Shown here in pieces: positions 12,334 through 19,889 of a stretch of 64,000 nucleotides of DNA. The position numbers and the translations under genes are program-made. This stretch comes from Mariprofundus ferrooxydans PV-1. Its GTDB lineage: Bacteria > Pseudomonadota > Zetaproteobacteria > Mariprofundales > Mariprofundaceae. The notes beneath the pieces are model-generated. The model was not told the origin of the DNA and ran no database searches. It saw only the letters and a list, made by a program, of their open reading frames with translations. The first letter of the stretch is position 1. Every line of letters starts with the position of its first letter. Where the stretch lies: assembly GCF_000153765.1 (NCBI RefSeq), contig NZ_DS022295.1:876887-940886 (forward strand), in the 5' to 3' direction.

Positions 12334-12439
12334 GCGCCCTCCCCACCATCGACATAGAGCGTTCATTCATAGCGCTTAAGGTCATCAATCAGGATAACTC
12401 CGGGTTTTACGACCAAGCCGATTTCTGCAGGGGTATTGA

Positions 12440-12459
12440 CCCCCGCTAGCAATCTGCCG
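12440..12459 (+). repeat. Dispersed intergenic repeat, copy 2
   Basis: This copy reads CCCCCGCTAGCAATCTGCCG. It follows a small hairpin GGGGT / ACCCC (12430-12443) and lies between the convergent rsgA and purA genes. See copies at 551-570 and 18941-18960. Confidence 0.65.
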
Positions 12460-12507
12460 AACCCCGCATCTGTAAAGCCGGAATAAGCGGTGGAGCTGCG
12501 GCGAGCA

Positions 12508-13797
12508 TTACAGGTGGATGATGTGCTTACGATCAGGGCCGGTAGAGAGCATTGTCACCGGGCAGTCGCACACTTCCTCAATACGCTTGAGCAACGCTCT
12601 GGCATTGGCCGGCAGCTGATCCATTGACGTAGCGCCAAAGGTGTTTTCCGACCAGCCGGGGAGCGTCTCATAAACCGGTTTAACGGCTCCCAGCTGCTTG
12701 CAGCAGGCAGGTACCGATTCCAGACGTTGACCGTCGAGTTCATATGCCACACACAGTTTGACCTCTTCGAGGCCGTCGAGCACATCCATCTTGGTGATCG
12801 CCAGCCCGGTCACACCGTTGATGCGTACAGCATGCTGTACAACAACGCCGTCAAACCAGCCGGTACGGCGCGGGCGACCCGTGGTCGAACCGAATTCGTT
12901 GCCCTTCTCCGCCATATGCTTGCCGGAAGGACAATCCATACCCTCTGCATTGTACAGCTCGGTCGGAAACGGACCTGCGCCAACACGGGTTGTATAGGCC
13001 TTGCAGATGCCGAGCACGGCATCCACCTGACCGGGACCGACACCGAGACCCGCCAGTGCTGCACCGGCAACGGTATTCGAGGAGGTGACAAACGGGTAAG
13101 TGCCGTGATCCACATCCAGCATCGAGCCCTGCGCGCCTTCGTAAAGAATACTGTCACCGGCCTTGATACGACGTTGCAGTATCAACGGCACATCGGCTGC
13201 CAGCGGCAGCAAACGTTCACGGGCCAGATCCAGCATCTCATCCACTTCCGCACGGGAGACAGGTGCAGCCTTCAGATATTCGACCAGCATGAAATTAACA
13301 TATTCAAGGTTGGCATCAATGCGCTCATCCAGATCGTCCGAAGTCAGATCCACCAGGCGGATACCACGACGGGCAGTCTTGTCTTCATAACAGGGACCGA
13401 TGCCCTTGCCGGTCGTGCCGATTTTGCCTTTACCTTTGGCCACTTCACGCGCGGCATCAAGGCTACGATGATACGGCAGGATCAACTGACAGCGCTCGGC
13501 AATCTTCAGCCGCTCGGGAACGGGAATGCCCGCTGCCAGCAGCATATCCATCTCTTCCACCAAACGCTTCGGATCCACGACCGTCCCGTTGCCGATCAGG
13601 CAGAGCGTATCCTCATGCAGGATACCGGACGGGATATGATTCAATACGGTCTTTTTGTCACCGAGCACCAGCGTATGGCCGGCATTCGGCCCGCCCTGAA
13701 AGCGCGCCACCACATCGACATCCGGTGCGAGCAGATCAACGATCTTGCCCTTGCCTTCATCGCCCCACTGGATTCCGATTGCTATAGTATTTGTCAT
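12508..13797 (-). CDS. purA: Adenylosuccinate synthetase
   Basis: PurA joins IMP and aspartate using GTP in the first committed step to AMP. The 429-residue protein begins with NTIAIGIQWGDEGKGKIVD, the P-loop-like hallmark, and has GPNAGHT and the GTTGKGIGP stretch. The frame stays open for 15 more codons upstream, into a repeat element at 13826-13858, but the family N-terminus fixes the start at 13797. It is the last gene of serA-hisZ-purA; the repeat between hisZ and purA may affect how much message reaches it. Confidence 0.97.
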   Translation of the reverse strand: MTNTIAIGIQWGDEGKGKIVDLLAPDVDVVARFQGGPNAGHTLVLGDKKTVLNHIPSGILHEDTLCLIGNGTVVDPKRLVEEMDMLLAAGIPVPERLKIAERCQLILPYHRSLDAAREVAKGKGKIGTTGKGIGPCYEDKTARRGIRLVDLTSDDLDERIDANLEYVNFMLVEYLKAAPVSRAEVDEMLDLARERLLPLAADVPLILQRRIKAGDSILYEGAQGSMLDVDHGTYPFVTSSNTVAGAALAGLGVGPGQVDAVLGICKAYTTRVGAGPFPTELYNAEGMDCPSGKHMAEKGNEFGSTTGRPRRTGWFDGVVVQHAVRINGVTGLAITKMDVLDGLEEVKLCVAYELDGQRLESVPACCKQLGAVKPVYETLPGWSENTFGATSMDQLPANARALLKRIEEVCDCPVTMLSTGPDRKHIIHL

Positions 13798-18134: not shown

Positions 18135-18763
18135 TCCGCTGCTACTCCGTTGATGCCCTGTCGGTCTCCGGCGACAAGGCCTGGCGTTTGCAGGATGACG
18201 AGAGCTGGCGTCCGTGCACCTATGGCGAAGCGTTGCAACCCCACGATGCCCGCATCACCGATAATGCAAAAGCTGAATACTGGGTAGGCCGGCGCCTGAA
18301 AAAAGACAAACAGGGCATGCTGATGCCTCAGCAAAAGGCCGGCAGATTCGATTTCCTGATGCGCGGCATCTTTGCCCATGCGGTTATCCATCACCTGCAG
18401 GAAACACCGCTGCCTGAGCGTAGCGACATGGAAGCATGCATCGCAGCCCAGACTCCGGGCACACCGTGGCTGCTCTATCTGGATCCGGATGCACGCTTCC
18501 GCTCTCTCGATAGCGAGCATGAACCTATCATCGGTAATCTTGATATTGCCGTGCGGGGTGAAATTGCCTCCAGCCCCGACTATGTCGGCCCGCAGGCCGT
18601 CACCAATGAGGTGCTGATGGACAATACGTGGCGCCAGTTCCTCGGCGGCTGGCTGGATCATCTGAAATCATCGAATATGAATGTCTTTGTACCGGATATT
18701 GAAAAGCTCAAGGAAGAGTCCGACTATCTCGACGCCATCCATCACTGGCAGCACGAGCACTAG
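18131..18763 (+). CDS. Hypothetical protein co-translated with rnd
   Basis: I do not recognise this 210-residue protein. It starts with GTG overlapping the rnd stop, so the two are made together. It is acidic, without signal peptide or membrane segments, and rich in tryptophan near its ends (KAWRLQDDESWRPC; IHHWQHEH). A basic patch (YWVGRRLKKDKQG) lies near residue 55. The coupling to rnd suggests an RNA-related role, but nothing in the sequence shows it. Confidence 0.75.
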   Translation: MIRCYSVDALSVSGDKAWRLQDDESWRPCTYGEALQPHDARITDNAKAEYWVGRRLKKDKQGMLMPQQKAGRFDFLMRGIFAHAVIHHLQETPLPERSDMEACIAAQTPGTPWLLYLDPDARFRSLDSEHEPIIGNLDIAVRGEIASSPDYVGPQAVTNEVLMDNTWRQFLGGWLDHLKSSNMNVFVPDIEKLKEESDYLDAIHHWQHEH

Positions 18764-18816
18764 TAAACACTTACGTCAAATAATTATCCTTGCGTGACAG
18801 ATATTTGTTCATTCTT

Positions 18817-18844
18817 GTGCGTACAAGAACGAACCAAGAAAACG
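18817..18844. repeat. Long hairpin GTTC-TTCTTGT / ACAAGAA-GAAC
   Basis: Stem of seven perfect bases (TTCTTGT / ACAAGAA) extended past one mismatch by four more (GTTC / GAAC), with a four-base loop GCGT. It lies 54 bases after the stop of the gene ending at 18763 and may act as its terminator or protect the message end, although no T run follows. Confidence 0.55.
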
Positions 18845-18890
18845 CCCCGAAAAGCAGCCTGCCCTATACGGGTTCCCGATCCTGCATACT

Positions 18891-18929
18891 CAAAATCGGC
18901 CACGGCTCCGCCACTCTTATCCGATTTTG
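18891..18929. repeat. Inverted repeat CAAAATCGG / CCGATTTTG
   Basis: Nine-base perfect arms separated by 21 bases that can form their own small stem (GGC / GCC). It directly precedes dispersed repeat copy 3. Confidence 0.55.
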
Positions 18930-18940
18930 AATATTGGTCT

Positions 18941-18960
18941 CGGCAGACTGCTAGCGGGGA
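18941..18960 (-). repeat. Dispersed intergenic repeat, copy 3
   Basis: On the minus strand it reads TCCCCGCTAGCAGTCTGCCG, differing from copy 1 only in the first base. It abuts REP-like hairpin B, which suggests that the two repeats can belong to one larger element. Confidence 0.65.
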
Positions 18961-18991
18961 AAGCAAGCGGCACTGTCCTGCCGCGCGATAG
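18960..18991. repeat. REP-like hairpin element, copy B
   Basis: AAGCAAG, stem GCGGCA / TGCCGC with loop CTGTCC, then GCGATAG. Same layout as copies A (13826-13858) and C (19099-19129). Confidence 0.65.
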
Positions 18992-19042
18992 TTGAAAAGT
19001 GATTGCTTTGGATTCCCCCTTATAGATTTGCCGAATAGAGTT

Positions 19043-19086
19043 ATTCACTACAGGAAATAGCTGCGGATGCAGCGGCTGTAGTGAAT
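19043..19086. repeat. Long two-part hairpin ATTCACTACAG / CTGTAGTGAAT
   Basis: The outer arms pair perfectly over 11 bases (19043-19053 with 19076-19086), and an inner stem GCTGC / GCAGC (19060-19064 with 19069-19073) closes a four-base loop. The structure is strong enough to fold as RNA or as extruded DNA. Confidence 0.65.
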
Positions 19087-19098
19087 GGCTCGTATGAG

Positions 19099-19129
19099 GA
19101 GCAAGCGGCGTTACCCCGCCGCGCGATAG
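19099..19129. repeat. REP-like hairpin element, copy C
   Basis: AGCAAG, stem GCGGCG / CGCCGC with loop TTACCC, then GCGATAG. Compared with copy B, the closing pair of the stem has changed on both sides (A-T to G-C), so pairing is kept. Confidence 0.65.
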
Positions 19130-19148
19130 GCTATAAGTTGGACGCTGT

Positions 19149-19381
19149 GATTCGGCACATCCATGTGTCTCACCCTTGCGGGCGAGCTTTTAGCTCGTCC
19201 AAATCAGCTCTCCTGCAGATTTGTCTTTCACCCCTTTTTTTGATTCAAGCCTCATGGCTTTCACCCTCCGGGCGAGCTAGAGCTCGTCCAAACGGCTCCT
19301 GCCTTTTTGTGATTCAGCACATCCATGTGCCTCACCCTGCGGGCAAGCTAAAGCTCGTCCAAACGGCTCCTGCCTTTTTGT
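19149..19381. repeat. Three imperfect tandem repeats of about 70-93 bases
   Basis: Units start with GATTC at 19149, 19242 and 19311. Each contains a short palindrome around CATG (for example GCACAT / ATGTGC in unit 3), then CACCC, GGGCGAGC or a variant, a hairpin built from AGCTCG, and TCCAAA; each ends in a T-rich stretch. Units 2 and 3 share their last 37 bases almost exactly. The pattern suits tandem terminator-like or protein-binding units. It is not a CRISPR: the units adjoin with no unique spacers. Confidence 0.65.
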
Positions 19382-19508
19382 GCCGCAAAAGAAAGGGGGA
19401 TGCTCTGCTTTAGCAGAGTAGTATGTAGCTTTAAATGCATCTATCGCTTACCGGGGATCAAGAAGCACCCGCATATCGGCGGCTTAAACCGATCATGCAT
19501 TGCGATAC

Positions 19509-19889
19509 TCATGTTTGAAGCCAGCCTATGGCTGCATTGGCATCTTCAAAATATTTCACTTCACCGGCAATAAACCACGAACCCATTTTGGCGGCATACG
19601 ATTGCCATTTTTTATTGCCGAAAATAGCGATCCTGTCGAATTCACTGCCATGCTTCAGACCGAGCCTGAAATCATCCCATGCCGCCCGGAGCTCCCACCC
19701 TTCCAGCTCTGATCCGTCGATAAAGACTTTTACCTTCGGATCTGTAACGCCCTCCAGTGCCGAATCAATCATCGGATTGATTTTTTCATAATCCTCATGC
19801 GTCAGTTTCCCTACAGCTTTCAGCGACAGAAAAAAATCACCGCCCACTCTTTCGATGCCAATGAAAAGGCCATGTCGGGTAATACTCAT
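19509..19889 (-). CDS. SpoIIAA-like STAS-family protein
   Basis: This 126-residue protein begins ITRHGLFIGIERVGGDFFL and contains VKVFIDGSELEGWELRAAW and FDRIAIFGNKKWQ, the pattern of the SpoIIAA-like family (a STAS-type fold also seen in lipid or small-molecule carriers). The C-terminal WFIAGEVKYFEDANAAIGWL is typical. The cellular role of this family is poorly known; membrane or stress association is often suggested. It is transcribed alone towards the repeat island. Confidence 0.85.
   Translation of the reverse strand: MSITRHGLFIGIERVGGDFFLSLKAVGKLTHEDYEKINPMIDSALEGVTDPKVKVFIDGSELEGWELRAAWDDFRLGLKHGSEFDRIAIFGNKKWQSYAAKMGSWFIAGEVKYFEDANAAIGWLQT

Follow-up and report, generated by a model that had tools for sequence, protein, structure and literature searches.

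What is the hairpin-rich, non-coding island at 18764-19508 of the window (the whole 64,000-nucleotide stretch of DNA that was analysed), and how did it come to lie between two convergent transcription units? The island is flanked by a plus-strand operon of RNase D and an orphan gene and by a convergent SpoIIAA-like gene, in a genome of 2.99 Mb. The orphan gene has relatives of 71-78% identity in Mariprofundus erugo and in a Zetaproteobacteria MAG. With the M. erugo genome (G002) also among the congeners, the bacterium is of Mariprofundus type. The island holds no convincing gene: its open reading frames are short, with overlaps between several frames. Folding of the whole island gives z = -5.8 on the plus strand and -5.0 on the minus strand, with 0 of 20 shuffles equally stable, and sub-regions give z = -3.3 and -4.2. 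The repeat density is thus above chance, as the first-pass annotation had proposed, and the hairpins and tandem units it described are present, at slightly corrected coordinates. The features of the locus are as follows.

Ends at 18763, plus strand: orphan gene of 210 aa, left neighbour of the island and last in the RNase D operon.
18796..19511, plus strand: whole MITE copy, left-truncated and right-decayed, placed by end-to-end alignment with the intact element L037:4968-5603.
18804..18837, plus strand: H1, first hairpin of the A module (arms 18804-18818/18823-18837; repeat search); its stem sequence varies among copies and its pairing is kept.
18805..18962, plus strand: A module, ~158 bp, the most widely shared part (155.5 bits with covariance model R1, which was built from the window copy among others).
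18886-18899/18921-18934: arms of the third hairpin (repeat search).
18967..18984, plus strand: short GCGGCA...TGCCGC hairpin, first copy, inside the repeat 18962-19000.
19005..19099, plus strand: B module, with a long stem at 19038-19091 and an inner hairpin at 19060-19073 (repeat search, module comparison).
19105..19122, plus strand: short GCGGCG...CGCCGC hairpin, second copy, inside the repeat 19100-19138.
19146..19382, minus strand: three tandem T units of ~72 bp each, with two hairpins per unit on the minus strand and loops mostly with GGA.
19383..19466, plus strand: D segment adjoining the right end, with a hairpin CTCTGC-TTTA-GCAGAG at 19403-19418.
19485..19511, plus strand: putative decayed right terminal inverted repeat (TIR), which faces TTCCCGCTAATGCGCGATGAACC of L037 in the global alignment.
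19509-19889, minus strand: SpoIIAA-like gene, convergent right neighbour of the island.

Two of the stems differ in detail from their first description. The large stem and its inner stem, given earlier as an 11-base perfect stem at 19043-19086, are real, but the arms are 16 nt long and 88% complementary, at 19038-19053 and 19076-19091, and enclose the inner hairpin GCTGC-GGAT-GCAGC. The hairpin described as a 7+4 stem at 18817-18844 also exists, although its true position is that of H1. Two REP-like hairpins had been reported; they are a single 39-nt motif in two copies, 77% identical, and the GCGGCA...TGCCGC hairpin also stands alone elsewhere in the window's genome (G000: L035, L036). Read in reverse, the B module is similar to the A module's 3' half. 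A tandem-array scan (TRF) of the island found no array above threshold, so the T units have diverged from one another.

Copies of the island were sought elsewhere, as had been suggested, and were found: 26 partial matches lie in its own genome, and a search of 40 relatives gave matches in 20 of 22 congeners and two weak ones outside the genus. Most matches to other copies end at island position ~698-703, and comparison of the island with plasmids and phages gave no match. The tandem T unit alone also has matches in other genera of the family. The covariance model places the A module in 49 of 74 Mariprofundaceae genomes, with 18 copies in the genome of the window. Modules A, B, T and D recur elsewhere in differing combinations and orientations, and T units and arrays are also found outside TIR-bounded elements. 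Examples of T-unit arrays without terminal repeats lie between adjacent genes at L133:2151-2385, directly before an apparent ribosome-binding site, and at L034:4679-4900. Within the window, a weak match to the A-module model at 12438-12543 on the minus strand (18.5 bits, E 0.0018) is possibly an older remnant.

The flanks of many A copies open with GGTTCATCGCG...CGGGA and close with the reverse complement of this sequence, and runs of T or A often adjoin them. The TIR consensus is 23 bp long, GGTTCATCGCGNANTNNCGGGAA, and the same pattern read backwards as a control gave 0 hits in 25 genomes. A systematic scan recovered non-coding elements bounded by 23-bp TIRs, most of them 127-680 bp long, with a final set of 25; more than 20 further copies in the genus have the same ends paired with short A/T-run direct repeats. 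Exact 8-bp target duplications flank 11 of the 25 TIR-paired elements and are absent in 14, the count rising to 18 when one mismatch is allowed; matches in homopolymer runs are the less informative among these, and elements within one genome share ancestry, though their insertion sites differ. None of the 25 is identical at 9 or 10 bp, and the 8-mers are 93% A/T. An empty site is also available. In G015 a 518-bp element interrupts a T-tract that follows GAGGGCTGATATAGCCCTC, and T7A stands at either end of it; the orthologous terminator of G001, 81% identical over 300 bp, is uninterrupted. The family therefore has what defines a MITE, namely TIRs around a non-coding interior, target duplications, many copies and an empty site.

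The same ends are carried by insertion sequences (IS) of the ISL3 type, whose transposase family (PF01610) was searched for in 74 genomes of the family. At the starts of contigs C24 and C28 of G015 the C-terminus of PF01610 runs into the right TIR, contigs C3 and C25 start with the matching left end, and the flanking 8-mers pair as TCTTTTTT and AAAATTTT. The same IS stands at 10 contig ends of G082, a member of another genus, where two end pairs share TTTTTTAT and AAAAAATA. Assemblies break inside this IS, which in Mariprofundaceae is known from contig ends; plasmid ISL3 transposases are 87.5% identical to it over the 40-residue C-terminus, and an intact ISL3 IS from a Serratia plasmid has the same TIR as the MITEs and a ATATTTTC duplication. 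In G015, G082 and the Serratia plasmid alike, the ISL3 IS equals the MITE in TIR and in length of the target duplication. The IS ends occur in two versions, one with a GATTAGC core and the other with GAAGTCC, and the two are combined, one of each, in 11 of the 25 MITEs. Since the same ends and 8-bp repeats are found on ISL3 IS, the island is assigned to the non-autonomous ISL3-type MITEs, and on sequence grounds it was probably moved in trans by an ISL3 transposase. The PF01610 search of the window's genome found no transposase, so mobilisation was either in the past or from outside, and present-day activity in that genome is unlikely.

Two larger units with such ends were encountered. The locus L207 was considered as an autonomous partner and set aside, since what it carries is an rsgA-like gene together with a broken DDE transposase of IS1182-like appearance, not the ISL3 enzyme. 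Its 2.8-kb stretch (L207:1643-4473, on G012:C28) lies between one pair of MITE terminal repeats flanked by TAAAAAA and, with its RsgA-like GTPase gene, is possibly a MITE-bounded cargo unit. On a plasmid of Acinetobacter wuhouensis (L319:2470-5126), a unit that includes a CmlA/FloR-type efflux gene lies between related terminal repeats of the ISL3 type, and A-runs flank it at either end.

The window copy has no intact TIR at up to 4 mismatches and no target duplication of its own, so its identity rests on homology. In a global alignment, the part of the window between ~18796 and the SpoIIAA-like gene is matched over almost its full length with the 636-bp element L037 of the congener G016, whose 23-bp TIRs (GGTTCATCGCG...CGGGAA) are near-perfect, with 1 and 0 mismatches, and lie between A-runs. 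Relative to L037, the window copy misses the left end and has a decayed right end, and it has three T units against one, the two extra units being its sole large insertion. The island is thus, with high confidence, a decayed copy of a non-autonomous ISL3-type MITE. Because a single TIR pair in L037 encloses every module in the order seen here, the island is a single element and not a stack; of the earlier suggestion of nested non-autonomous mobile elements, mobility without autonomy is retained and the nesting is replaced by one composite MITE. That several independent elements were nested or stacked at this spot would accord with the varied module combinations and the free-standing T arrays, but the arrangement of L037, which comes from another species and bears on the recent history of the window copy, makes this unlikely.

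At the same gene junction in M. erugo the island is absent, a comparison that the first-pass annotation had called for. There the orphan gene is followed by xthA with less than 80 bp between them, and the relatives L011 and L062 have similarly short spacing after the orphan gene. The SpoIIAA-like gene (19509-19889) is likewise missing at this junction in relatives and was gained at the place of the MITE. Insertion here may therefore have been more complex than that of one MITE.

Insertions of the family show a common setting. Of 22 insertions, 18 have a stable hairpin directly beside the A/T run, in the manner of an intrinsic terminator, as compared with 16 of 116 control T-runs, defined as other T-runs of at least 6 in the same loci (Fisher p = 6e-10). 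With a looser hairpin cut-off, a first version gave 17 of 24 insertions, against 32 of 126 for T-runs and 72 of 300 for random positions. The element prefers the T-tracts of intrinsic terminators. In the titles and abstracts returned by a non-exhaustive literature search on ISL3 and other insertion sequences with terminators, AT-rich targets and MITEs, terminator targeting by ISL3 is not evidently described, and Zetaproteobacteria were not found joined with miniature inverted repeats. A large IS survey includes the statement that ISL3 elements lie preferentially between co-oriented genes (PMC9208149). Terminators as transposon landing sites provide a clear, testable case of safe-site targeting.

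In the proposed mechanism, an ISL3-family transposase from a full IS elsewhere would bind the 23-bp terminal repeats, mobilise the MITE and join it into an 8-bp A/T target, duplicating the 8 bases. The preferred target would be the T-tract of an intrinsic terminator, where the terminated gene would still be followed by a hairpin and T-run after insertion, so that little harm would be done. The window copy would later have had its left end deleted up to the neighbouring gene, its right end mutated and an inner unit triplicated.

Further copies were met in the window and in M. erugo. At 516-588 of the window, a 73-bp remnant with both terminal repeats lies within a terminator's A-run; in G015 (L124) the orthologous terminator holds a 514-bp copy, G009 has a matching end at that place, and the site looks like a hotspot. 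In M. erugo, ~318-bp MITEs are arrayed head-to-tail at L020:4386-5996 and L023:5168-6517 with 6-8 A/T bases between copies, as if a duplicated target had been reused by repeated insertion or recombination. The 324-bp tandem arrays of M. erugo were considered as integron or attC-like arrays; they are head-to-tail MITE copies, not gene cassettes.

Other readings of the island start from its hairpins or its reading frames. The hairpin richness would suit repeats of the REP/REPIN type, which a RAYT (Y1 tyrosine) transposase spreads by working on hairpins in single strands, and a RAYT gene lies ~80 bp from the L037 copy and another ~1.4 kb from a copy in the window's genome. The link looked promising at these two loci but is not general, as a copy occurs within ~1.5 kb at only 1 of 30 RAYT loci sampled. 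In addition, G011 and G008 have MITE copies and no Y1 match, and TIRs with 8-bp target duplications do not point to a Y1 enzyme, so that spread by RAYT is highly improbable. One RAYT-type Y1 transposase (L028:6516-7475) is joined with a DnaA C-terminal helix-turn-helix domain in a single protein. A decayed gene or pseudogene region is a reading with next to no probability; parts of the island are covered by short open reading frames and one frame runs open through the tandem units, but homologues found by DNA searches are mostly intergenic and in both orientations, and what is preserved is paired stems, not a reading frame.

The conservation of stems raises the question of whether the island, or its T array, is a functional structured RNA, for example a minus-strand RNA that binds CsrA/RsmA. 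In the A module, 93% of cells are paired and 11 of 18 pairs have changes on both sides, values above all shuffles and slid controls, although the alignment tested also served to derive the structure, which favours the result. Departures from pairing number 11 G-U against 11 A-C (manual count), so no transcribed strand is indicated, and the pairing is explained at least as well at the level of DNA, for example by hairpin-templated correction or single-stranded intermediates. The GGA loops of the T units resemble CsrA sites and are mostly kept on changing stems, and a weak Rfam match to PrrB_RsmZ occurs at L126 (31 bits against a cut-off of 44, E 0.0016). Against this, by crude open reading frames, 17 arrays have the GGA strand in the sense direction of the upstream gene and 25 have it antisense, and G-U against A-C counts in the T units are 1 to 9 and 1 to 2, which do not favour the GGA strand (the regular expression double-counts some units). 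The Rfam search gave no match within the island, the match at L126 is the best for CsrB/RsmZ-type RNAs and falls short of the cut-off, and promoter-like sites are at chance level. A source of structured RNA, as first proposed, is thus countered by strand-symmetric wobble counts and the absence of a sense bias; a CsrA-type RNA is unsupported by orientation and wobble counts, and a functional RNA of any such kind is very improbable. A related idea, which we regard as a long shot, is that the T units form a structured repeat of their own, present across the genus, and that their GGA-loop hairpins would bind CsrA or a similar protein once transcribed, ISL3-type MITEs having captured the units and spread them beside terminators. 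If true, MITE-borne T units would make numerous small RNA sponges or sites in 3' UTRs. The modular interior with its kept stems also poses the question of why a non-coding parasite would preserve structure.

An ISL3-type MITE at this locus is known in kind; what is unusual is the modular interior, the terminator preference and the tandem arrays. One mobile system accounts for much of the intergenic repeat content around the locus in Mariprofundus and its family, and its exact element ends can now be used by annotators. The ISL3 IS of Serratia marcescens pE28_001 (L318) shares with the MITE family a 23-bp TIR opening with GGTTCATCGCG and an 8-bp A/T-rich duplication, whereas the island is without a transposase gene and its interior consists of unrelated hairpin modules. 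REP/BIME and RAYT-linked repeats are likewise abundant extragenic palindromes, but RAYT linkage is not general here. Pneumococcal BOX elements are mosaic intergenic repeats in which modules at the ends enclose middle units that vary in number. The likeness to BOX is one of description, a mosaic with variable middle units, and the Mariprofundus family has true TIRs and target duplications. The nearest analogue among those described in the sources consulted is MITEAba12 of Acinetobacter, which is short and non-coding, has TIRs in common with a full IS and is flanked by AT-rich target duplications (PMC6382973). Its published account gives a length of 111-114 bp, the TIRs of ISAba12 and 9-bp duplications, with no sequence trend in the targets (PMC6382973). 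Compared with MITEAba12 as characterised there, the Mariprofundus family is mostly 127-680 bp long, modular, flanked by 8-bp duplications and directed to terminators.
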